DNA from: Lasiosphaeria ovina
Taxonomy: Eukaryota; Ascomycota; Sordariomycetes; Sordariales; Lasiosphaeriaceae
Assembly: GCA_033439765.1 (NCBI GenBank)
Contig: JAULSN010000003.1
Span: 5,332,001-5,396,000 of the forward strand
DNA length: 64,000 bases
Direction of reading: 5' to 3'
This document shows, piece by piece, positions 3,141-62,805 of this stretch. The notes beneath the pieces are model-generated. The model did no database searches. It worked only from the letters and a program-made list of their open reading frames with translations, and was not told the origin of the DNA. Every line of letters starts with the position of its first letter. Within the stretch, counting starts at the first letter, position 1. A program made the translations under genes and the position numbers.

Positions 3141-4604
3141 TCACAACACCACGCCGGCAATCTCAAACGTCTGGACCGAGTTCTTCTCAAACTTGGACCA
3201 GAACTTCTTCCCGCTGATATGCGTGTCGCTGGCCGCAGCATACAGGCTGCCGCCGGAGCCGATCTTGGTCGTCCAGCGCTTGACGAGAGCGCCATCCACA
3301 CCGGGGGTACCAAAGCGCGAGAGGTCAAAGTTGAGGTACTGGGCATCGCCCCAGTTGACGGCAACAATCACAAGCGTGCGGGCAGCCGCGTCGTAGGCGG
3401 CGACTGCGTAGTCGGCACCGGCGTCGAGCACGCGCATGCCGGGGCGGATGTGGCGCGTGAACTGCGCCAGCACAAAGTACTTTTGGTTGACGGCGGCGAC
3501 CGTCTTGGCGTCATTGTCAGCATCGACAAGCCCCCAGCCCCCGCCGTCCAGCACCTGCCAGTACACCCAGGCCGTCGGCTTCAGCCACCGGAAGTCGAGC
3601 AGCAGGTTGCTGGCCAGCCGCTGGCCCGTCGCGTCGCCCTCGCCGTACTCGCTGTTCCACAGCTTCTTGCCTGCCGCCGTCGCCAGGCTGCGCACCTTGT
3701 CGCGCGCGCCCTTGTCGTACTGGTAGCCGTGCACGTTGATGCGGGCTACCTTGGACAGTGCGGCCGAGCCGAGTTTCTGGAGCGTGGTTACGGCCTGGTC
3801 GTAGTAGCTCTCGTCCGACGCCGAGATGATGGTCGCCGCGAGGCCGCGGCTGTCGAGCTCGGCGCGCATGTTGCCGATGACGGTGGCCTGCGTGGCGATG
3901 TCGAAGTGGCAGCCCTCCTGCGTGCCCGTCTTGCCGCTCCACCACGTCGCCGACGGCTCGTTGAACGGGTCGACGGCCTGGAACTTGAAGCCCCAGTTGT
4001 CGGCGGCGTACTTGGCGACGGTGGCCAGGTAGAGGGCGTGGTCCTTGTAGTTCCACGACTGCAGGTTGTCGCTGCCGCCGTCGTCGGAGCCCGCCGGGTT
4101 CTTGTTCTTTAGCATCCACCACATGGGCGAGTTGGAGAAGAGCTCGAACACGTCGGCGCCCCTGTCGCGCGCCTTCCACAGCATGTTGCGCTGCGCCGAG
4201 TCGACGTTCCAGTTCCAGCTGCTTGACGACGGGCTGGTGCTGGCCCAGTCATGCCAGAAGCCCTCCATCTCCCGCGACCGGATCATCTTGGGCGACACGG
4301 CCATCCTGGAGCCGTTGTAGCTGTTGGTGCTGCACGCCCCCGCGTTGTAGCGCACAATGTTGAGCCCCAGCCCCGGCACGGTCTTGCCTTTAAAAGTCTG
4401 CGTCTTGGTGGTGAAGAAGATGTCGGCCAGGTCGTCTCGCGTGCCAAAGGCTTGAGCCCACCATGCGAGCGAGGTGCCCCATCCCTCCCACGTTCCAAGG
4501 TTCGACTTGGCGTCGATGGTCGTGGTGAGATCTGCAGCTACCGTTAGGATGTTTGATATGGCAAAACACAGGCCGGTGGCCAACCGCAGCAGAGAATAAT
4601 GCAT
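3141..4604 (-). CDS. Secreted GH30 endo-beta-1,6-galactanase-like glycoside hydrolase
   Basis: Intronless, 487 residues. A hydrophobic signal peptide covers residues 1-23 or so, with a likely cut after TVAA. The body matches glycoside hydrolase family 30, most like the fungal endo-beta-1,6-galactanases (subfamily 5): N-terminal GWGTSLAWWA, PGLGLNIVRYNAGAC, the acid/base Glu in AVDPFNEPSA (Glu216) and the nucleophile Glu in LWNSEYGEGD (Glu319), then a C-terminal beta-sandwich side domain. The enzyme would act outside the cell on beta-1,6-galactan side chains of arabinogalactan proteins. Length and both catalytic residues are as expected, so it looks functional. The galactanase assignment is by resemblance; another GH30 specificity is possible. 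Confidence 0.88.
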   Translation of the reverse strand: MHYSLLRLATGLCFAISNILTVAADLTTTIDAKSNLGTWEGWGTSLAWWAQAFGTRDDLADIFFTTKTQTFKGKTVPGLGLNIVRYNAGACSTNSYNGSRMAVSPKMIRSREMEGFWHDWASTSPSSSSWNWNVDSAQRNMLWKARDRGADVFELFSNSPMWWMLKNKNPAGSDDGGSDNLQSWNYKDHALYLATVAKYAADNWGFKFQAVDPFNEPSATWWSGKTGTQEGCHFDIATQATVIGNMRAELDSRGLAATIISASDESYYDQAVTTLQKLGSAALSKVARINVHGYQYDKGARDKVRSLATAAGKKLWNSEYGEGDATGQRLASNLLLDFRWLKPTAWVYWQVLDGGGWGLVDADNDAKTVAAVNQKYFVLAQFTRHIRPGMRVLDAGADYAVAAYDAAARTLVIVAVNWGDAQYLNFDLSRFGTPGVDGALVKRWTTKIGSGGSLYAAASDTHISGKKFWSKFEKNSVQTFEIAGVVL

Positions 4605-11251: not shown

Positions 11252-11325
11252 TCCCTCGTGGCGCAATTGGCTAGCGCGTCAGACTGTTAATCTGGAGGCT
11301 GTTGGTTCGACCCCAACCGAGGGAG
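11252..11325 (+). tRNA. tRNA-Asn(GTT)
   Basis: The acceptor stem pairs TCCCTCG (11252-11258) with CGAGGGA (11318-11324). The D arm contains the A box TGGCGCAATTGG, the anticodon loop CTGTTAA has GTT at 11286-11288, and the T arm contains GGTTCGACCCC. No intron. A T run at about 11336-11340 is a plausible RNA polymerase III terminator. Confidence 0.95.
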
Positions 11326-11501: not shown

Positions 11502-12218
11502 CTAGCCCTCAACGGCCGTAATGCCCTTTGCGTCTGGCGCTAACTCCGCCTCGTTGAACTCGTCGTCGTCGGTCGGCAGCTCTAGGTGGAATTTGGAGAG
11601 CTGCGCGGCCGCAACATCCACCTCGCCTTCGGACTCCAACGCTAGGATGTGGCCGCCCTCCTTCCGGTCGTCGCTGATGAAGTGTATGTGTATTCCAGCC
11701 ACGTTGATGCCCATGAAGTAGTCTGGCGCGCGGAAGCCGAAGACGGTTCCGCGCACAGAGCGGAACGTGTTCACCTTTTGCCGGCCGGCTACGTCGGTTG
11801 CCGACTCGCGGGGCGACTGCTGCCCGCCTGCCGTGCGTACGTTGACGCTCTTGAAGACGCCGTCGATGCGGACTGCTACGAAGTGGTTGGCCGCCGAGGG
11901 AAAGAGGCGCGTGAGGAGGTCCAGCAGGTCCTCCTTGCTCCCGACGGCCGTCTTTGCATTGGCCGTGGCCTTGAAGCGCGTCACTGTCGCGAACGGCGTG
12001 ATGACGTCCGCTGGCGACTCGATAGCCACGACGGACCCGTCCGACTTCATCTGGTAGACCGCCCCGTCGAGCACGATCATCTCTCCGTCCATGTTGCGGA
12101 ACGTCCCGAGGCCGTGGTCGCCGTGTTCGAGCACACTGGAGATGGCTGCGCCGTGCGACGCAACGCCGGCCATCAGGGCTGACATGGTGGAGTACTGGAA
12201 GACTTCATTCTGTGCCAT
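11502..12218 (-). CDS. Alpha-acetolactate decarboxylase
   Basis: Intronless, 238 residues starting MAQNEVFQYSTMSALMAGV; an open frame extends further upstream but this ATG matches the usual bacterial N-terminus. The enzyme converts alpha-acetolactate to acetoin and CO2 (EC 4.1.1.5). Family hallmarks are present: the early GTFRNMDGEMIVLDGAVYQ, which carries the catalytic Glu region, and the metal-binding GIHIHFISDDRKEGGHIL with the three zinc-ligand histidines. No signal or mitochondrial presequence is seen, so it should be cytosolic. It is transcribed divergently from an acetolactate synthase gene across a 391-bp gap. That arrangement points to a dedicated acetoin route, as in bacterial budA/alsD-budB/alsS operons. 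Transfer from bacteria is possible but not tested. Confidence 0.93.
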   Translation of the reverse strand: MAQNEVFQYSTMSALMAGVASHGAAISSVLEHGDHGLGTFRNMDGEMIVLDGAVYQMKSDGSVVAIESPADVITPFATVTRFKATANAKTAVGSKEDLLDLLTRLFPSAANHFVAVRIDGVFKSVNVRTAGGQQSPRESATDVAGRQKVNTFRSVRGTVFGFRAPDYFMGINVAGIHIHFISDDRKEGGHILALESEGEVDVAAAQLSKFHLELPTDDDEFNEAELAPDAKGITAVEG

Positions 12219-12609
12219 TTTGCCTGGATATTTGGGTGGTGTTTTTTTTTTGTTGTAGTCTTCTGCTGTGTTTTTCTTGGTGAGGATTGCCGACACTCGA
12301 CGACAATTGATGGCCCTGTTGGTTACCTTAGGTACTCTGCAGCCTGTACCCAGTGTCCCGCCCCGAATCTGCCCCGACAACGCCGGTCGGGATTCGGTCT
12401 TTAATGCATGTGTCCGCCACCGCTGCACGATGAGTTCATGGTTCGCCCTTGCACCGCATGAGCGGCAAACTTCGGATGCAACCGGCAGGAACACCTCCCG
12501 CTCTGCACTGACTGGCACCGGCTGCCATGTATTAAATTAAACTTCACCATCCCACCACTCAGCCCCTGTCTCGTCCGGTCACTACATCCGATAACCCCCC
12601 TCTTTGACA
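12219..12609. promoter_or_regulatory. Shared divergent promoter of the acetoin gene pair
   Basis: 391 bp separate the two start codons, so both genes probably share control elements. A T-rich tract lies at 12241-12251. ATTAAATTAAA at about 12531-12541 is the only TATA-like tract, on the synthase side. No binding site can be named with confidence. Confidence 0.5.
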
Positions 12610-14322
12610 ATGGCGGCCGAAACAGAAACCGTGCAGATTGTGATCGACTCGCTTCTCGCTGCCGGCGTAAAATACGTCTTCGGCGTGCCGGGCGCCAAGA
12701 TCGACTCCGTCTTCAATGCGCTTATCGACCACCCCGAGATCAAGCTCGTGGTCTGCCGCCACGAGCAGAATGCCGCCTTCATTGCCGCCGCTATCGGGAG
12801 GCTCACCGACCGGCCTGGCGTGTGCATCGCCACGTCGGGTCCGGGCACAAGCAATCTCGTCACCGGTCTCATCACAGCCACGGACGAGGGCGCACCAATG
12901 GTCGCCATCGTCGGAACCGTCAAGCGCTCCCAGGCATCAAAGCGGACCCACCAGAGCTTGCGTGCCACAGAACTGCTGGCGCCCGTCACTAAGAAGGTGC
13001 TCGACGTCGTGATGCCCGACCAGATTGCCGAGATCATGGTAGAGGCCTTCCGGGTGGCCAATTCCCACCACCGGGGTGCAACCGCCGTAACCCTGCCAAT
13101 CGATGTCATGACGGCCGGCATTAAGTCGTCCATTCCCGCCTTCCCACCTAGCGCATTTGTCCCGCCGGAATACGGTTGTGCACCAAACCAGGCTCTCAGC
13201 AAAGCAGGTGACCTCATCGCGCAGTCCAAGTTTCCCGTGCTTTTCCTCGGCGCACGCGCTGCAGACGCGCCCGTAGTCCAAGCAGTGCACGCCTTCCTGC
13301 GCAAGCACCCCATTCCCGTCGTCGAGACGTTTCAGGCGGCCGGAGCAATCTCGAAGGAGCTGGTTCACCTGTTCTTTGGGCGCATCGGACTTTTTCGCAA
13401 CCAGACTGGCGACAAGCTGCTGCAGCAAGCCGACCTTGTGATCACCGTCGGTTATGACCAGGCAGAGTATGATGCCAACCAGTGGAACCCCAACAACCGT
13501 TTTGATATCATCCACCTCGACACCGGCCCGGCCGATCTTGGGTTCAACTACGCCCCAAAGCTCGAGCTGATGGGGTCGCTGGCCGGAAACATTGATGCTC
13601 TGGCCACCATCCTCGACACTCGGGTCCCGTCCTCTGTCTTGGCTCGTCCGCACGAGACCGACGTCGCGAAGAAGCTCTTTGCCGAGTTCCACGCATGGGA
13701 GACGGACGTTGACGCAGCGCCCAAGCCCAACGGCGGGCCGGTCCACCCCCTGTACTTCATCTGCTTGCTGCAGTCCCTGATCGACCCCGGCACGACTGTC
13801 ATCTCGGACGTCGGCAGCGTGTACATCTGGCTGAGCCGGTTCTTCTACTCGTACGCGCCCAAGACGTTCCTCGTGTCCAACGCGCAGCAGACGCTGGGCG
13901 TGGCGCTTCCGTGGGCGATCGGCGCGTCGTTTGCCCAGACTCCTGTCCCGTGCGCGCGCAAAGTCGTCAGCATCAGCGGCGACGGCGGCTTCCTGTTCAG
14001 TGGCCAGGAGCTCGCCACGGCCGTGAAGCAGGGCTGCGACATCACGCACTTTATTTGGAACGATGGGGCCTATAACATGGTAGAATTCCAGGAGGTCGAC
14101 AAGTACGGCCGCAGCTCGGGCGTCGAGCTCGGCGGCGTCGACTTCAAGAGGTACGCCGAGGCCTTTGGCGCAAAGGGCATCAAAGTCACCAGCTCGACCG
14201 AGATGGAGGCGGCCATGAAGGAAGCCCTGGCACACAAGGGCGTCTGCGTCGTCGACATCACCATTGACTATTCGCGCAACTATGAGCTTATGGCCAATGT
14301 TGTTGCTGACAACGTTTCCTGA
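12610..14322 (+). CDS. Catabolic-type acetolactate synthase
   Basis: Intronless, 570 residues from the ATG at 12610 in a good context (GACAATGGC). It is a thiamine-diphosphate enzyme condensing two pyruvates to alpha-acetolactate and CO2 (EC 2.2.1.6). The cofactor-activating Glu52 lies in VVCRHEQNAAF. The ThDP/Mg motif runs from GDGG (Asp458) to Asn484 in FIWNDGAYN. The overall pattern (YVFGVPGAKIDSVF, SGPGTSNLVTGLITATDEG) resembles bacterial AlsS/BudB rather than the biosynthetic fungal Ilv2: no mitochondrial presequence, and tight linkage to acetolactate decarboxylase. It probably feeds acetoin formation from cytosolic pyruvate. Phylogeny would be needed to exclude a diverged eukaryotic ThDP enzyme. 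Confidence 0.92.
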   Translation: MAAETETVQIVIDSLLAAGVKYVFGVPGAKIDSVFNALIDHPEIKLVVCRHEQNAAFIAAAIGRLTDRPGVCIATSGPGTSNLVTGLITATDEGAPMVAIVGTVKRSQASKRTHQSLRATELLAPVTKKVLDVVMPDQIAEIMVEAFRVANSHHRGATAVTLPIDVMTAGIKSSIPAFPPSAFVPPEYGCAPNQALSKAGDLIAQSKFPVLFLGARAADAPVVQAVHAFLRKHPIPVVETFQAAGAISKELVHLFFGRIGLFRNQTGDKLLQQADLVITVGYDQAEYDANQWNPNNRFDIIHLDTGPADLGFNYAPKLELMGSLAGNIDALATILDTRVPSSVLARPHETDVAKKLFAEFHAWETDVDAAPKPNGGPVHPLYFICLLQSLIDPGTTVISDVGSVYIWLSRFFYSYAPKTFLVSNAQQTLGVALPWAIGASFAQTPVPCARKVVSISGDGGFLFSGQELATAVKQGCDITHFIWNDGAYNMVEFQEVDKYGRSSGVELGGVDFKRYAEAFGAKGIKVTSSTEMEAAMKEALAHKGVCVVDITIDYSRNYELMANVVADNVS

Positions 14323-26479: not shown

Positions 26480-28318
26480 ATGGCGTCTCAAAATGTCAAT
26501 GGCGAGACACGCCCAAAGAAGCGGCTCATTATCAATGCGTTTGTTGAAATGTGTAAGTGTCGCTCTCCAAGTTTTGTGGCTTGCCTCGGCCGGGCGAGGG
26601 TCCGGGATGCATCTTAACGCCGAAAGGCGGCAGACTAATCACGGGCGACCCACGAGCGACCCAATGAAAGCGAGCGACTAATCATCCTTCCGACCCTGCA
26701 GGCAGCGGCCACCAGTCGCCCGGACTGTGGCGGCACCCGGAGGACCAGTCGTGGAGATTCAACGACGTCGACCACTGGATCGAGCTGGCGAAGTTCCTAG
26801 AGGAGGCCAAGTTCCACGGCATCTTCATCGCCGACGTGCTGGGGGGATACGACGTGTACTCGCAGTCGCTGGATCCCGCCGTCAGATCCGGCGCGCAATG
26901 GCCCGTCAACGAGCCGCTGTCTGTCGTGCCCTCCATGGCCGCCACCACAAAGTCGATCGGCTTTGGCGTCACCGTGTCGACCACCTACGAGCAGCCGTAC
27001 CACTTGGCCCGGAGGCTGTCGACGGTTGATCACCTCACCAAGGGAAGGTGAGTAATTCGCTCTCCGATCGTTGAAACGAGTGTCGCTGACTTTCTCCGCC
27101 AGACTTGGATGGAATGTGAGTTGCTGCAACTATTCTGAGTTAGGTCCTTTTAACTAACACGACCAAGATCGTGACAAGTTATCTAGACTCCGCTGCCAAG
27201 AACCTCGGACGGTCCGAGCAACTGCCTGTAAGTAGTACCAACTTACCTCGCATCTGGCAACGACTCGCCTGCTAATTGACTGTTGACTACCGCCAGCATG
27301 ACGACAGATATGCCCAGGCGGAAGAGTACATCAAGGTCATGTACAAGCTCTTCCAGTCGTCGTGGCGGGACGACGCGGTGCAGCTAGACCGCAAGGCGGG
27401 CATCTACACGGCGCCGGAGCTGGTGCGGCCCATCAACCACACGGGGCGCTTCTTCACGGTGCCGGGGCCGGCCATCACACAGCCGAGCCCGCAGCGCACG
27501 CCGCTGCTCCTGCAGGCGGGCACGTCGCGTGCGGGCAAGGTTTTTGCGGCGCAGCACGCCGAGGCCATCTTCGTGTCAGCGCACGCGCCGCAGGTGTGCG
27601 CGAGCAGCATTGCCGAGATCCGGGCGCTGGCGGCCAGCGCGCACGGCCGCGACCCGCGCAGCATCAAGGTGCTCGCGCTGGTGACGCCCATCCTGGGGCG
27701 CACCGAGGCCGAGGCGCACGCCAAGCTGGCCGAGTACCGTGAGTACGCGTCGACCGAGGGCGCGCTCGCCCTGTTCGGCGGCTGGACCGGCATCGACCTC
27801 GCCGCCTACGGAGACGACGAGGAGCTGCGCGAGGTTGAGAGCAACGCCGTCAAGTCGACCGTCCAGGCCTACGCTCGCTTCATCCCCGCCGGCTCCAAGT
27901 GGACCAAGCACACCGTCGCCGAACATGTTAGCATTGGCGGCAACGGGCCGATCCTGGTCGGCACCGCGGAGCAGGTCGCCGACGGGCTCGAGACGTGGGT
28001 TGCCGAGGCGGATGTTGATGGGTTCAACTTTGTGAGTTTTTTTTCCCCTCTTCTCTTCACAAGCGAATTGTAGCTAAGTACCGATTTTCACAGGCGTACG
28101 CGCTCTTCCCGCAGTCGTTCAAGGACATCATCGAGCTGCTGCTGCCCGAGCTGCGCAAGCGCGGGCTCTTCTGGGACGACTACGCCGTCCCCGGCGGCAC
28201 GTACCGGGAGAACTTTTATGGTCAGCCCGGTCAAAAGCACCCGCCCACCGAGCACGTCGCGTCGACTTACCAGTGGCGCGCTGGTGTCCCGGCGAGTGAG
28301 CACAAGATTCCAGAGTAG
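26480..28318 (+). CDS. FMN-dependent monooxygenase, NtaA/SnaA/DszA family, 6 exons
   Basis: Exons 26480-26552, 26702-27047, 27103-27115, 27168-27227, 27297-28031 and 28094-28318 join in phase to 483 residues. It belongs to the bacterial luciferase superfamily, nitrilotriacetate/dibenzothiophene-sulfone monooxygenase branch: GLWRHPEDQSWRFNDVDHWI, LEEAKFHGIFIADVLGGYDV, the conserved SVVPSMAATT, GRLGWNIVTSYLDSAAKNLG around the microexon, LLLQAGTSRAGKVFAA, and the C-terminal VDGFNFAYALFPQSFKDII. Such enzymes use FMNH2 from a separate reductase and O2 to oxidise small sulphur, nitrogen or phenolic substrates. Exon 3 is only 13 nt yet encodes the invariant LGWN, which confirms the model. All hallmark segments are intact. 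Confidence 0.9.
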
Positions 28319-30391: not shown

Positions 30392-32822
30392 ATGGCGGAC
30401 CCTCTATCTGTCGGGGCGAGTCTCTTGGCCTTTATCGGACTCGCGGACCGCATTATCCGGCTAAGCAAATACTGTATCGATGGGCTCAAAGACGCGCCGA
30501 GCGACTTTCGCATGATCCATGGCGAAGTGTCGTCCCTCCGGGCAATTGTTGACGACCTAACAGGAATCGACCAGCTGTCTCTCTTCGCCAAGGGTGGCCC
30601 CCTTGAAGCTTGTTACCGCTGTCTCTCTGACCTCGAGGGCCTTCTTCCTACCGACGCGAGCCAGGGTCAGGGTCATCGCCGCCGCCTCACTATTGCCGAG
30701 CTTGCTTGGCCGCTGAAACAGAACAAAGCTAGGAAATTACTAGCTGAACTCTCACAGCACAAAGCTACTCTACTCCTGATGATTTCGGGTGACATTATGT
30801 GAGCCGCTCATGTTGACGATCAATTGTTAGCACGGATTGCTCATTTCGTTCTATTAGTCACGAGCTGCAAGGTATCAAAACAAGCATCCAAAAGTTGCAA
30901 ATCGATGTCTCTGGTAACTATGGCTTCTTCACCCCACCCACACCCCCTACTCGCCTGACTAACCTAACCGGCCAAGAATCCGAGCGCCGGGATATTCACA
31001 CTTGGCTGGAGAGGACAAATCCGTCACGGCTACACAATGCCGCAGTCAGCAAACATGAACCCTACACATGCGCCTGGCTAGCACGGTCCGCCGAGTTGAA
31101 ATCGTGGATGTCATTAACATCCACCGATCGAATGCTTTGGATCCATGGAATCCCTGGCGCCGGCAAGACAGTTCTGGCATCTTTCGCCATTGAGCACATG
31201 AAGCTCTACTGTGAAGGCACTACGAACCAGAAGTACGCCTACTACTACTGCCATTACTCGAACGGCCAAGACGAATCCCTGCCGCTCATAAGCTGGGTTG
31301 TTTCCCAGGTATGTCGGCAGTTGAGCTGGGCGCCCTCCCAACTCAAACAGCTCCATGATCGAGGCTGTGAGCCCACACTTTCTGAGCTACAATACGTCCT
31401 GGAGCTTGCTCTAGTGCGGCTGGAGAGCCTTTTCATCGTTATAGATGCGGTGGATGAGAGCACACCTCGGGACGAGCTGGTGCGTTTTATTGCTTCTATG
31501 GCCCTGGATAGCCGATTCCGAAAGGTCCGTATTCTCGTAACGAGTCGGAAATACTGGGATATTGAGCGCTTCTTTTCTGGGATCTCGACGTCTATATCGA
31601 TGAAGAACCGATATGTCGATGCCGACATCGAGCGCCACATTCGTTCGAGGCTCAACTCCAGCTTCCGCCTCCAGCGATGGCGTGACTCTTTCCAAGAAAT
31701 TGAAGATGCGCTGGTGGGAAAGGCCAATGGCATGTAAGTTGAGCCCTAGAGACTTGAATGAGTTTTTCTGACTAAAAGAACAGGTTCCGTTGGGTCGATT
31801 GTCAACTCCATAGCATTGAGAGGCTTGGTGATAAGACGAAACTCGTCTCCGTGTTGCAAGACTTGCCCCCAGACCTGAGCGAGACCTATGTCAGAATATT
31901 CGACGCTATCCCAGACGCCGATCGGCAATTCGTCTCTCGTGTTCTCCTATGGGTCTACGGCGACTCCAGAGCACCTTGGTCAGTCCGTCGAGCCATCAAC
32001 GCAAAACTACTACTCGAGGCAGTCACTTTTGACTTGTACGGCAGTGTCCCAGCCGGGGGAAACGGCGTCTTTGACTGGGATTACCTCCAAGATCTCTGCG
32101 GCTGTCTCATCACCGTCAAAAACCGAGACCCCCTCACCGATGCCGCCGCTTGCTCCATCACACTTGCCCACTACACCGTCTGGGAGTTCCTCACTTCCTC
32201 GCATATCCTTTCGACTCGCGTTTCCCAGTTTGCAGTATCGACACAGGCCGTCTACCGAGATTTTGCCACAAGCGTGCTTCGTCAGGCTCTTTCGGCGGAT
32301 CCCGAAGGCGAAGGAACGGACTGGCGGCGCGACCGGGACGCATATTGCCTGGTGCTCGGATGTGCCCTGAAATCGGACAGGTACCTCCAAACCCCCGAAG
32401 ACCTAGAGCTGTACTTTCGCTTCTTGGACCCCTGCAACCCACATTACCGCCGGTTTCGGGCTATCCAGTCCCGGGCTCTTCACAGCCCTTCGGACCGGGC
32501 ATACCGATTCTCCATTTTGAAGATTCCCGCCGAGTTCCGGGCACCAGAGGGTGCCGGAGAGCGAAACTACATGGCTGAGGTTCTGCTCAACGCTCGCCTA
32601 CTCAACGATTGGATGCCCGGGGAGCACGCGGCGTACACGACTCATCTACCACCGGTCGGTCGACTGCCGCAACACGAGATCGAAGAGCTTGGAAACCAGC
32701 GGGCAGCAGGCATCTTCTTGGGCCTGGATGCAAAGGCGCGTGATCAAGAAATTGGATTTGATGGGAAAGTTTGGGATATCGAAGCTCCTCGTCGAGGAAG
32801 TCGAATTATCCAGCACAATTAG
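30392..32822 (+). CDS. NACHT NLR with HeLo-like N-terminal domain, 3 exons
   Basis: Exons 30392-30798, 30858-31733 and 31784-32822 give 773 residues. Residues 1-135 (MADPLSVGASLLAFIGLADR, then LAWPLKQNKARKLLAELSQ) form the helical HeLo/STAND N-domain. A linker leads to DIHTWLERTNPSRLHNAA. The NACHT domain follows: Walker A GIPGAGKT at 233-240, YYYCHYSNGQDES, Walker B LFIVIDAVDES at ~327-337, sensor RILVTSRKYWDIE, then the helical FRWVDCQLHSIERL and LPPDLSETYVRIFDAIP. The C-terminal ~340 residues have no WD, ankyrin or TPR repeats I can see. Such proteins are cytosolic receptors in fungal self/non-self recognition and programmed cell death. All nucleotide-binding motifs are intact. A second in-frame acceptor 27 nt upstream of exon 2 is possible but would leave a 32-nt intron. 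Confidence 0.88.
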
Positions 32823-34226: not shown

Positions 34227-35504
34227 TCACGGTAAACCGTACACCACTTCCACCGGCATTCCGCTTCTATGGGCCTCTTCGGGGATTTCACAGAAGATTC
34301 GCTCGTACGGCTTATCCAGGGTTTTTGGCAAGCTTTCCAGTGCGGTATTGACGACATTTCTATCAGGCCTCAGACGTTGCAGCGCGTCAATCTGGCAAAC
34401 GACCCAACGGAACCTGTTGATGACGCGGTTAATAATATAATTCAGTACGAAATGCAACTGACACAATACTTACATTCCCTTTGCTTTGGCCGACAAGGCG
34501 AGAAAGACATCCTCTTTGAGGTTGGGTGGCCAGTTCTTGATCCTCGGGTGCGTGTCAAGCTTTGATCGAACAAAGAGCTTGATATCGTCATCCAGTAAAG
34601 GATCACTCATCCAGAGCGTCGTCGAGATCCCAAACATGACATCTTCAACATCAATATAATCTCGGCTAGTCACCAAAATGTGAACATTCTGGAATCTTTC
34701 GTCGGTTGCGAAATCTCTAATGACCTTGAGAATGTTTTCCCGTGGCATGCTTTCGTCCACAGCGTCCACAACAACGAATATCCTATCATACTCCTTGACA
34801 GTCTCCTCGACGGCCTTGAGAAGATCACCAAGACTTGGTTCCGAGCCTTGGGAGTAGAGCTCATAAAGGTAAGTCGGAATCTCACCTGCCCGTCGGCAGA
34901 GCTGATTCAGGATCCACTTCAAGAAGGGCATAGCCTCGTCCTGAAAATGGTTGTAAAAGCAGTAGTAGTGTAGGGAAATGTTGTCAGTTCCCCCACAACA
35001 GGCTTTGAGGGCTGTGGCTAAGTGCGATACCAAGATGGTCTTACTAGCCCCGGGTATTCCGCGGATCCAAATTGAACGCGAACTACCCTCCAGCCAAGCC
35101 TTCCACTGGTCCAAGCGAAGTACACAATCCCCGGTTCCGCTCTCGTAGCGATCGCAGGCCTGGTGGTGCAATGTAGACGGATCTGTTGCGTGGAGCCAAT
35201 TGTAGATTTCCTGCCTTTGCATTTCTTTCTCGAAGGATTAATCAATTAAGAAACCACTGAGTGGCGGACTTGCACTTCTGCCACTCTCACCTGTCAAAGC
35301 GGCAAAGATTGCCTTGGTATCCCGAACGGACTCCGTGGTCAAAGCCAAACTGATCGCATCCTTGCACTGCTTCAGCTCGCCCAGCAGTTTCTTTGCCTTG
35401 CTATCCTTGAAAGGCCAGGCCAAGGCCGCCAACCTGACGTTTGTTCTTCTCCCTTTCGCCTGGGTGTCGGGGGACGGGACATCCGTGTTGTCAATGTCGG
35501 GCAA
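34227..35504 (-). pseudogene. Truncated NACHT NLR, paralogue of the gene at 30.4-32.8 kb
   Basis: Probable exons are 35504-35291, 35224-34474 and from 34413 downwards. The first reads LAALAWPFKDSKAKKLLGEL, the end of a HeLo-like N-domain; the start of that domain upstream of 35504 is not readable in one frame. The second gives EIYNWLHATDPSTLHHQA, Walker A GIPGASKT (Ser where Gly is usual), YYCFYNHFQDEAMPFLKW, Walker B IFVVVDAVDESMP and VHILVTSRDYIDVE. The third begins FRWVVCQIDALQRL and stops matching after LPKTLDKPYERIF, at about 34280. Domain order, spacing and wording parallel the intact NLR on the opposite strand 2 kb away. Loss of both ends and the altered P-loop suggest a dying duplicate. 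Confidence 0.75.
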
Positions 35505-59385: not shown

Positions 59386-62300
59386 ATGAGCTCCTGGATC
59401 AACGAGGCCGCTGTCCAGAATCACAATGGCAACGGCTTCTCTCACATCAACGACCCCTCTGCTGTCCCCGGAGCCATGATGGACCCTTCCGCGTACATGG
59501 GCAATCCCGCCCAGTTCAATCCGCAATTCGCGAACCCGCAGCAGATAGTAATGAACAATGGCTCAATGCGCAATGCCTCGCCTTCGTTCCCGAACCCAAT
59601 GTATCAGACGAACCCCGTCATCCCATCGAAGCGGCCTCGCCCGCGCGAGGACAGCTTGGGGCAGTCGCCGCGACAGGCGCCTGGTATGTTGCCGACCTCG
59701 CGCGCCGACACCCCTCAGCAGTCACCCTTCTCGGGTTTCCCGCAGCCGGGGATGCAGCCACAGTCCTCCGGGCAGCCTTCCCCCTATCCTCATCTCCAAA
59801 CGAATGGCTCCGCGAATGCGACGCCTTCGCCCATCATGAGCAACCAGATGCGACCTGGGAGCGTTCCTCAAAGAGTCTCGACAACCTCTCCTCACCCGTT
59901 TTCGCCCGCGACACAACAATTCCCCCAGGCATCCCCAATTCCATCCGATCATAGCGGCACGCCGCAGCCCTTCATGCAACAGAATAACTTCCAGCCCAAC
60001 TTCAACCCCCAGTTCGCGCAAGCGCAATCACCCGCGCGACCGTCACCGACTCCAAACGCAATGGGCGGGCAGATGATGCCGCAGCAAATGGGTCAGATGC
60101 CTCAGCAGATGCAGTTACAAGGTCAAATCCCGCAAATGCCGGGCCAGATGCCAAATCAAATGGGTCAGCTACACAACCAAATGGCAGGTCAGATGCAGAA
60201 TCCCATCTTCCCCCAACAAATGCCGCAGGCTCGGAACACGATAGACCAGCAAAGAGCGATGTACCAGATGCAGCTCCAGCAGCAGCAAGCTCAGCGGAGT
60301 GGGATGCAAATACAGCATATGGGTCCACAAAACATGATGCATCCGCAAGCTAGTCCAAACCAAGCGCAATCTCAAGCACAGGCACAAGCGCAGGCCCAGG
60401 CGCAAGCACACGCTCAGGCGCAAGCTCAGGCGCACAGGAACATGATGGCCCCAAGGCAAGGCATGCCTAATGGCCAGATGCCACCAGGGGCGATGAGGCA
60501 GCAGCCAGGTCTTCCTCAGCAACAGCAGCAACAGCAGCAACATCAGCAACAGCAGCAACAGCAACAACAGCAGCATCCGAAGCAACCGCACCAGCCGCAA
60601 CAACAGCCGCAGCAGCAGTCGATGGGTAGGATGCCAGCACCGGACCAATTCATGAAGAATCTTACAATGTTCATGAATTCGAAAAATATGCCTCTAGACT
60701 TAAATCCGATTGTCGAAGGACGTCCAGTTCACCTGATGAACCTCTTCCAGGTCGTGTATCACAAGTTTGGTGGTTATCGCAACATCTCGCAGTCTAATAA
60801 CTGGCCTCAAGCTTCACATGCGCTAGGATTTCCACCACAGCAGTTCCACTCAGCTCCCCAGCAGCTGAAAAGTATATACGAGCGCAATCTCCTGAGGTTC
60901 GAGGAGGTGTGGTCGTCACAACAGAAGGTTCGAATGCAGCAGCAAGGGGGAGTGCCAAACGCGCCAAATGTACAACCTGGAACTCCCTCCAAGGCTATGC
61001 CACCCGGACCAATGCAGACCTCGCACATGATGCAGCCGGGGCAGCCGCCGCAACAGCTCCAGCAAGGTCCGATGCAGTCTCCTGTCAAGCCACCCGGCCC
61101 ACCGCAAGGCATGAACGGGTTCCCCGGTCCGCAGCATCATCCTGGCCAGCATCCGATGAACTCGGTGCATGGTCATCGAAACAGCGTCTCGAGGAGCGTG
61201 CAGCCGACGCCCACGGCCGAGGAATTCCCATTGGCCTCTCCGGCGCAGAGCAAAGCAGGGTCCATGTCCCTACCCGGCTCTGCTCATCCTGAAAGCCACG
61301 GAATGCAGGATGAGGGGATGGCCTCCATGCAGTTCCCGGCACCATTCGCAACCGACCCGGAAGAATATATGCCTTGCTCGAGGGAGCTCACAACATTTGG
61401 TGGCGTGGATTTGGTCGCAACTGTGAAAACTGCCGATGATCTGTTGAAGTATAAGCCGGACCTTCCTGCTCCCATCGATTTGGGCAACGTCGACATACAC
61501 GCCCTGAACAAGAGCATCCAGAGCGGCATACACGGCGAAATTCGACTTGCCCTGGATACTTTGGCATCCTTGACCTGCATCGAGTCCTACCATGGCATCC
61601 CGATTCCGCAAATTGATCTCCGGGTATGCGACGACCTAGTTGACTCTCTGGTCGAGTGTGCTGAGGAGCAAGCTGATCTGCTCGCTGAAAACTCGGAGGA
61701 GGCATCGAATGAGGTCACTATTACTCTTTACGAGGACGTCATTCGTGCATGCCGGTCCGAGAGGTTCGCATTACGAAACGTGCCGCTATTTGGTTCTCAA
61801 GCGTACGAGCTCGACCGAGCTGTCGACCGACTAATATGTATCACCACCATTCTCCGAAATCTTTCTTGCCGAGAAGACAACCAGCAGTGCCTCGCGGAGG
61901 ACACCGTCATCAAGTTCATCTGCGTGGTGATAAGGTATCTTGGCACCCGGGAGATGCTTCTTAGGACCCAGGTGAACACGTTGGATTTGATGAAAGATCT
62001 GGTCATTCTGCTCTCGAATATCACCAGCAGGGTGGAGATTCCGGGTCGAGAACAGGCTTTCTGTCTTCTCCAGTTTTTGCTGGCCTTTGCGCCGTCCCCG
62101 ATTCCAACACTTTCCAACGACAAACTGTATTTTGCATCATACGATCCAGCTCTTCATCCTTACCTCCCTCACGCCGTCGACTCGCTGGCGAAGCTGTTAG
62201 CAAGGGATGAGCCGAATCGGACATTCTACAAGGCGATATTTGCTTCCGATATTGCAATCACGGCAACCCCGCCTGGCGAACTCCTTACTCGAGCCTTTGG

Positions 62301-62805
62301 ACTTGCCATCTCACCGATCCCCGACCATTCTCGCGACTCTCGGCCTTCGAACCTACCTTCATTGGTTGAGGCGCGGAAGCCTTTCCTGATGCAAGGTCTC
62401 CTTGCTGCCGACATAATAGCTGCTCTAGCACCTGCATTCGAAAGTGGTGTAACGCGCGCGTGGCTTGCGTCAGGCAACGGCTTTGCCCAAAACCTCTTTC
62501 TCCTCGTTCGCCAACTCAGCGCTCAGTTTGAGGGTCAGTCTACCAGGTCCGGAGGTGGACAGCATAGGAACCATGCCAAGAAGGATTCGGAGCTTGTGTA
62601 CATTGTGGGACTTGCCGTGAGCACTTTGAAACGGCTGAGCGAGAAAGCGCGGGATCCGAACAATCCTACAGGGGAGAGTAGCATACCACCCAATGTCCTC
62701 CCTGGCAGAGACAGTCTTCTGGGCGCGCTACAGATGCAGGCGCAGGAATGGAGCAAAGAAGGAATGTTGGCCGACTTGGTCGCGTATGCTGGCCTTGAAG
62801 ATTGA
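59386..62805 (+). CDS. SWI1-like ARID-domain subunit of the SWI/SNF chromatin remodeller
   Basis: Intronless, 1139 residues. Residues 1-410 are low-complexity, rich in Gln, Met, Pro and Asn, with Ala-Gln dipeptides (~330-345) and poly-Gln tracts (~375-410). An ARID DNA-binding domain covers about 418-520 (FMKNLTMFMNSKNMPLDLNP, HLMNLFQVVYHKFGGYRNIS, NNWPQASHALGFPPQQF, LKSIYERNLLRFEEVW). A second Pro/Gln-rich linker runs to ~665, and an ARM/HEAT-like helical C-terminal domain (~680-1135) ends LADLVAYAGLED. This is the layout of fungal Swi1. It would act in the nucleus, targeting SWI/SNF to promoters. The Gln-rich N-terminus resembles the prion-forming part of yeast Swi1 in composition only. Confidence 0.92.
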   Translation: MSSWINEAAVQNHNGNGFSHINDPSAVPGAMMDPSAYMGNPAQFNPQFANPQQIVMNNGSMRNASPSFPNPMYQTNPVIPSKRPRPREDSLGQSPRQAPGMLPTSRADTPQQSPFSGFPQPGMQPQSSGQPSPYPHLQTNGSANATPSPIMSNQMRPGSVPQRVSTTSPHPFSPATQQFPQASPIPSDHSGTPQPFMQQNNFQPNFNPQFAQAQSPARPSPTPNAMGGQMMPQQMGQMPQQMQLQGQIPQMPGQMPNQMGQLHNQMAGQMQNPIFPQQMPQARNTIDQQRAMYQMQLQQQQAQRSGMQIQHMGPQNMMHPQASPNQAQSQAQAQAQAQAQAHAQAQAQAHRNMMAPRQGMPNGQMPPGAMRQQPGLPQQQQQQQQHQQQQQQQQQQHPKQPHQPQQQPQQQSMGRMPAPDQFMKNLTMFMNSKNMPLDLNPIVEGRPVHLMNLFQVVYHKFGGYRNISQSNNWPQASHALGFPPQQFHSAPQQLKSIYERNLLRFEEVWSSQQKVRMQQQGGVPNAPNVQPGTPSKAMPPGPMQTSHMMQPGQPPQQLQQGPMQSPVKPPGPPQGMNGFPGPQHHPGQHPMNSVHGHRNSVSRSVQPTPTAEEFPLASPAQSKAGSMSLPGSAHPESHGMQDEGMASMQFPAPFATDPEEYMPCSRELTTFGGVDLVATVKTADDLLKYKPDLPAPIDLGNVDIHALNKSIQSGIHGEIRLALDTLASLTCIESYHGIPIPQIDLRVCDDLVDSLVECAEEQADLLAENSEEASNEVTITLYEDVIRACRSERFALRNVPLFGSQAYELDRAVDRLICITTILRNLSCREDNQQCLAEDTVIKFICVVIRYLGTREMLLRTQVNTLDLMKDLVILLSNITSRVEIPGREQAFCLLQFLLAFAPSPIPTLSNDKLYFASYDPALHPYLPHAVDSLAKLLARDEPNRTFYKAIFASDIAITATPPGELLTRAFGLAISPIPDHSRDSRPSNLPSLVEARKPFLMQGLLAADIIAALAPAFESGVTRAWLASGNGFAQNLFLLVRQLSAQFEGQSTRSGGGQHRNHAKKDSELVYIVGLAVSTLKRLSEKARDPNNPTGESSIPPNVLPGRDSLLGALQMQAQEWSKEGMLADLVAYAGLED
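60505..60625 (+). repeat. CAG/CAA trinucleotide tract coding poly-Gln
   Basis: Mixed CAG/CAA codons interrupted by CAT, AAG and CCG encode the Gln/His/Pro-rich tract before the ARID domain. Preceded at about 60361-60440 by CAAGCG/CAGGCG units coding Ala-Gln. Confidence 0.85.

Follow-up and report, generated by a model that had tools for sequence, protein, structure and literature searches.

A bacterial-type acetoin gene pair in Lasiosphaeria ovina, probably of old bacterial ancestry and found linked in related moulds

A gene pair of the kind considered here has been described in Penicillium digitatum, where two adjacent genes, PDIG_14840 (ALS) and PDIG_14850 (ALD), were called an acetoin biosynthetic cluster and form part of a five-gene stretch that responds to AfpB (PMC10269557). 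In that fungus, the AfpB response is common to both genes, their expression is highest late in growth, and their life-cycle profiles are qualitatively different; the downstream branched-chain genes show no response alongside the pair, and single and double deletion mutants are unchanged in growth and fruit infection, with a two-fold higher AfpB MIC (PMC10269557). A fungal ALS/ALD pair, its joint response and its deletion are already known from this species (PMC10269557). For bacteria, a review lists three roles of the acetoin pathway: it prevents acidification, helps to balance NADH and stores carbon (PMC10466699). Among the matches listed in our search of the PMC literature, which covered titles and the starts of abstracts, none was found that dealt with a transfer history of the pair, with a change from head-to-tail to divergent orientation, or with a fungal clade possessing the decarboxylase only, which is not proof of absence.

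The window analysed here is the whole 64,000-nucleotide stretch C23:5332001-5396000 of the L. ovina genome, and the pair sits about 5.34 Mb into contig C23 (6.36 Mb). The initial annotation described acetolactate decarboxylase (ALDC) and an acetolactate synthase (AlsS) as divergent neighbours separated by 391 bp. The coordinates bear this out, and both ORFs are uninterrupted. The features to which we refer are as follows:

3141-4604: GH30 ORF, 487 aa, uninterrupted
11502..12218, minus strand: ALDC (acetolactate decarboxylase), 238 aa, one exon, ATG at 12218
12219..12609, no strand: divergent intergenic region, 391 bp, presumed from its position to carry both promoters
12610..14322, plus strand: AlsS (catabolic acetolactate synthase), 570 aa, one exon, matching NF006378 and TIGR02418
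45949-47931: PGAP2IP ORF, 660 aa, uninterrupted
59386-62805: ARID ORF, 1139 aa, uninterrupted

Elsewhere in the window, a tRNA-Asn (GTT) gene lies at 11252-11325 on the plus strand, 176 bp past the ALDC stop codon. NPHP3_N/NACHT-type ORFs of fungal NLR-like genes are located at 30895-31737 (+) and 34470-35222 (-), and an ORF at 27276-28073 belongs to the luciferase-like monooxygenase family (PF00296), which is common in bacteria. From their position, the two genes of the pair would share a promoter region; consensus sites for PacC, CreA, TATA and CCAAT each numbered 0 in the 391-bp gap, against 0.1 to 2.0 in shuffled sequences, a comparison that is uninformative. Neither an AlsR-type regulator nor BudC was found beside the pair in the window, and the 17 matches in the L. 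ovina genome to the bacterial BudC-type butanediol dehydrogenase model (TIGR02415) reach at best 179 bits, below the cut-off of 304.

The pair was also thought to stand out as intronless amid genes with several introns. Its two ORFs are indeed uninterrupted, but the neighbours also hold long uninterrupted ORFs (ARID, PGAP2IP and GH30), so the lack of introns is not exceptional in this window. The GC3 values of the two genes (0.83 and 0.79) fall within the span of four neighbouring ORFs (0.62-0.88) and give no sign of foreign origin. As evidence of transfer, both intronlessness and base composition are weak. Bacterial-type genes without introns could also reflect bacterial contamination of the assembly, to which we give a negligible probability: the pair lies deep in its contig, fungal-type genes occupy the window, the closest relatives among the matches listed are named fungi (97% and 77-82%), and the bacterial matches found do not exceed 50%. 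Contamination was accordingly rejected on contig position, fungal neighbours and fungal closest relatives.

In a profile search, the window ALDC scores 207.5 bits against TIGR01252 (cut-off 180.65) and 263.5 bits against PF03306, and its predicted structure (pLDDT 91) has a TM score of 0.91 to the solved ALDC 4bt2. When 82 fungal ALDC rows are aligned with 34 bacterial ones, E46, R128, H177, H179 and H190 are kept in 116/116 and E237 in 114/116; we take these six residues to bind the metal or to act in catalysis. The score above the curated TIGR01252 cut-off, the PF03306 match, the predicted fold and the kept active-site residues all place the protein in the ALDC family, and one copy was found in the 51.7-Mb genome. 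The end branch of the window ALDC measures 0.24 against 0.08 for its sister Podospora didyma in the 116-row tree, and 0.28 against 0.10 in the tree of linked pairs. By these branch lengths, the window ALDC is evolving faster than that of P. didyma, with its predicted active site nonetheless intact.

The synthase had been annotated as catabolic in type and free of a presequence, and both descriptions hold, the second as judged by eye. It scores 697.8 bits against NF006378 (cut-off 510) and 662.2 bits against TIGR02418 (cut-off 551.1), while the biosynthetic model TIGR00118 gives 293.7 bits, below its cut-off of 538.35. A domain search finds three TPP-enzyme domains. Residues 281-288 read GYDQAEYD and match the GYDxxEYD loop found in bacterial AlsS; at this place the Ilv2 of the same genome has RFDDR, the FAD loop of biosynthetic acetolactate synthases. 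There is one AlsS copy in the 51.7-Mb genome; the same search also picks up Ilv2, at 26% identity, encoded on contig C29, with the regulatory subunit Ilv6 on contig C28, both separate from the acetoin pair. Among the matches listed, Lasiosphaeria miniovina (Sordariales) has an AlsS that shares 97% identity with the window enzyme. On the strength of its sequence, the enzyme is a catabolic AlsS and not Ilv2. A duplicated and relocated Ilv2 that lacks a presequence would explain the TPP-enzyme domains common to both proteins, but the low identity and the different FAD loop argue against such an origin, as does a tree in which Ilv2 falls with biosynthetic enzymes and AlsS with bacterial AlsS (100/100). 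We rejected this duplication on tree placement, the 26% identity and the loop, and regard it as scarcely credible.

Judged by eye, neither the N-terminus of AlsS nor that of ALDC has the look of a presequence, and their C-termini are not SKL-like, from which we infer that both enzymes are probably located in the cytosol. Our main reading, to which we assign a probability of roughly 0.82, is that the two genes encode a bacterial-type acetoin pathway, probably cytosolic and derived from an old bacterial transfer, that operates alongside the Ilv2/Ilv6 enzymes, which separately supply valine and isoleucine. AlsS would convert two pyruvates to acetolactate and CO2, using TPP, with no FAD expected and no regulatory subunit, and ALDC would convert acetolactate to acetoin and CO2. 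A route from pyruvate to acetoin is redox-neutral, consumes protons and takes pyruvate from other routes. The least certain part of this reading is the role, most likely the late-growth disposal of surplus pyruvate, which would leave the cell as a neutral volatile. The initial annotation put forward overflow metabolism, pH control or a volatile signal, all of them candidate roles. Overflow disposal is the role we favour, albeit on weak support, and the P. digitatum deletions without a growth or infection phenotype, together with the differing profiles of the two genes, speak against a strong overflow role (PMC10269557). Filamentous ascomycetes would in this way possess a bacterial-type pyruvate outlet in addition to the ethanol and amino-acid routes that they already have.

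Support for a bacterial ancestry comes from the trees. In a 56-row tree, the 26 fungal AlsS that were sampled fall into a single clade (100/100); a branch of length 1.58, also supported at 100/100, unites it with 17 AlsS from bacteria and leaves Ilv2 outside among the biosynthetic enzymes. The initial annotation would have been contradicted by a synthase nested inside mitochondrial Ilv2, a placement that the tree does not show, and its suggestion of horizontal acquisition is favoured by the attachment of the fungal clade to bacterial AlsS, though not by intronlessness or composition. The outgroup, for which the program warns of long branches among the biosynthetic enzymes, places fungal AlsS beside Bacillota weakly (86/71), and AU tests on 45 AlsS rows allow both the bacteria as one clade (p 0.55) and the fungi with Bacillota (p 0.50), singling out no donor phylum. 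Two near-identical enzymes of the Bacillota sample (L035 and L036), 34% identical to AlsS, branch between AlsS and the biosynthetic enzymes.

For ALDC, a 116-row tree made by a quick method splits 82 fungal from 34 bacterial rows (SH-aLRT 100). The fungal rows comprise the window, 69 of 93 species-named rows and 12 of 104 without a species name, eight of these 12 having entered because they were linked to AlsS. The 24 named rows left out are P0097, which was too short, and 23 from Fusarium, Trichoderma and Colletotrichum, thinned for size. A contig scan with the fungal ALDC alignment gave 6 loci, too few to point to a donor. The ALDC of Thermothielavioides terrestris (row P0018), formerly named Thielavia terrestris, lies in the same fungal clade. 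In one study, the T. terrestris ALDC had significant activity in Parageobacillus lysates, while that of Chaetomium thermophilum was outside the three significant activities named, its cassette yielding some 2,3-butanediol (PMC10185769).

The nearest AlsS among the sampled bacteria is 50% identical and the nearest ALDC 44%, so any transfer would be old; the bacterial rows are samples of three phyla plus plasmids, with Actinomycetota and most other phyla outside them. In trees made up of fungi and bacteria, the best reading, although not proof, is an old transfer of AlsS and ALDC from bacteria into filamentous ascomycetes. Old vertical inheritance of both genes in eukaryotes, in which other lineages lost them and fungi received nothing from bacteria, accords with the AU result, which permits the fungal rows and the bacterial rows to form one clade each, in trees where fungi are the sole eukaryotes. 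The outgroup placement beside Bacillota, itself weak (86/71), and the phylogenetic conflict described below, which shows that the pair does move, both tell against vertical inheritance, and we consider it very unlikely.

A related question is how often the two genes lie together. We searched ALDC twice and kept the best 120 rows of each search, giving 197 distinct rows, all named ones being fungal; the AlsS list holds the best 120 rows, down to about 818 bits and 64-66% identity, with one name per cluster, and the AlsS of Fusarium and Trichoderma fall at its lower edge. An ALDC row was called linked when the longest contig of its cluster representative was exactly as long as an AlsS-bearing contig, a criterion that misses true pairs (for example, Lasiosphaeria hispida counts as unlinked whereas a close relative is linked). 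Even so, at least 39 of the 197 listed ALDC rows are linked to AlsS by this criterion, while each of twelve shifted controls yields none or one, which supports linkage of the two genes in many other fungi. Fourteen of the 39 linked contigs are no longer than 60 kb and six no longer than 15 kb, the shortest being 3,737 bp, and in Colletotrichum fioriniae the two genes have consecutive locus tags (COL5a_000369 and COL5a_000370). From these records, the predicted acetoin pair is widespread in related moulds and not peculiar to the Lasiosphaeria genome. In bacteria, a strong AlsS match was obtained in 12 sampled genomes that also have ALDC (7 of 398 in one sample and 5 of 348 in another), and in 12/12 of them the two genes are same-strand neighbours; they also lie side by side on one strand in three annotated bacterial plasmids. 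We infer that genes arranged head-to-tail in bacteria ended up divergent in the fungus.

Distance matrices of ALDC and AlsS for 40 linked pairs agree, with a Mantel r of 0.815 where the best of 2000 permutations reached 0.267; a common species history by itself would produce the same agreement. Aaosphaeria arxii (Dothideomycetes) is more informative: its two genes lie on one contig by the linkage criterion and are sister to those of Dactylonectria estremocensis (Hypocreales) in both gene trees (100/99 and 100/100). Because this conflict with the species tree is common to both linked genes, the pair would have moved together between fungal classes, in either direction. Transfer of the linked pair as a unit thus seems indicated, with the proviso that closer Dothideomycete rows may lie outside the best-120 lists. 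If confirmed, such joint passage of a metabolic pair from one fungal class to another would offer a small and tractable case of gene-cluster transfer. A second AlsS of Aa. arxii (P0233, on a contig of 4,678,637 bp) is sister to that of Trichoderma asperellum (100/100), apart from the first copy, and is possibly a second acquisition. The AlsS of Stachybotrys elegans (P0166, on a 2.73-Mb contig) is 92.9% identical to that of Colletotrichum graminicola and 68-73% to four other Hypocreales rows, and it groups inside Colletotrichum in the 56-row tree; it is likely to represent a second transfer between fungi, or else a mislabelled assembly.

The partnership is not universal. A clade of 29 of the 82 fungal ALDC rows (SH-aLRT 95), mostly Chaetomiaceae and Podosporaceae, was recovered again in a careful tree with 26 of its rows (92/91). 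Species names are attached to 27 of the 29, for example in Chaetomium, Thermothelomyces, Madurella, Triangularia and Cladorrhinum. Linked rows number 0/29 inside the clade and 28/53 outside, a comparison whose Fisher value is inflated since 8 of the 12 rows without a species name were chosen for being linked. With named rows alone, 0/27 in the clade compares with 19/42 elsewhere in the tree (p 1e-5) and with 19/66 over every named row outside the clade (p 1e-3), all these values ignoring kinship. The best 120 AlsS rows listed include none of the 27 species names, and when the 26 best of them are placed in a tree with four more, the three clusters without a name in the Sordariales group lie with other genera. 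AlsS of related paired species is 74-82% identical among the matches listed, well above the list edge near 65%, so an AlsS of the clade should have shown. The simplest reading, given a negative that rests on the best 120 AlsS rows, would be one loss of AlsS with ALDC retained. Five catalytic positions are kept in 29/29 clade rows and the sixth in 28/29. Podospora didyma and P. aff. communis do have AlsS, the Podosporaceae (in the NCBI sense) being mixed. The fungal clade is not unique in this respect, as 5 of the 12 ALDC-bearing genomes of one bacterial sample lack an AlsS match at E 1e-100. The proposal that the pair is under selection as a unit therefore stands in part: linkage in many fungi favours it, whereas the 29 of 82 fungal ALDC rows without an AlsS partner (among the matches listed) and those five bacterial genomes do not.

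In the species of the 29-row clade, ALDC may be fed by the mitochondrial pathway. A wider proposal, which we hold tentatively and at somewhat less than even odds, is that the pair descends from bacteria and wanders as a two-gene unit, and that AlsS was lost, with an active ALDC retained, in an ancestor of Chaetomiaceae and of the Triangularia/Cladorrhinum-type Podosporaceae. In that lineage ALDC would serve as a cytosolic valve for acetolactate escaping the mitochondrial Ilv2 pathway, which would couple valine and isoleucine flux to acetoin release. If confirmed, the contrast between species that have the full pair and those with ALDC alone would provide a natural experiment on whether fungi release acetoin as a product of fermentation or as a by-product of amino-acid synthesis. 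An alternative for the pair itself is that it mainly guards the acetolactate pool, by maintaining branched-chain balance or by removing stray acetolactate before it becomes diacetyl, and is not a fermentation route. ALDC kept without AlsS, in the 29-row fungal clade (among the matches listed) and in five of the 12 genomes with ALDC in one bacterial sample, is in keeping with such a guard, as are the P. digitatum mutants reported to lack a growth phenotype; the downstream branched-chain genes of that fungus, however, showed no response alongside the pair (PMC10269557). At the present locus, moreover, a predicted catabolic AlsS adjoins ALDC and would yield acetolactate outside the valine pathway. 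We therefore judge a mainly protective role unlikely and retain the acetoin pathway as the preferred reading.

Set against known systems, the window pair has the same two enzyme families as the bacterial alsSD and budAB(C) operons, and its genes are likewise adjacent; the bacterial pairs of the sampled genomes, however, run head-to-tail on one strand, whereas the window genes are divergent and so depart from the operon arrangement. The mitochondrial Ilv2/Ilv6 acetohydroxyacid synthase carries out the same first reaction as the window AlsS, but Ilv2 belongs to another clade, has the RFDDR loop and works with a regulatory subunit. The P. digitatum pair, compared here by its published description, its sequences lying outside the rows of our searches, resembles ours in that ALS and ALDC genes are adjacent in a filamentous ascomycete; the window holds two such genes only, in divergent orientation, whereas those of P. 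digitatum belong to a five-gene AfpB-responsive stretch (PMC10269557).
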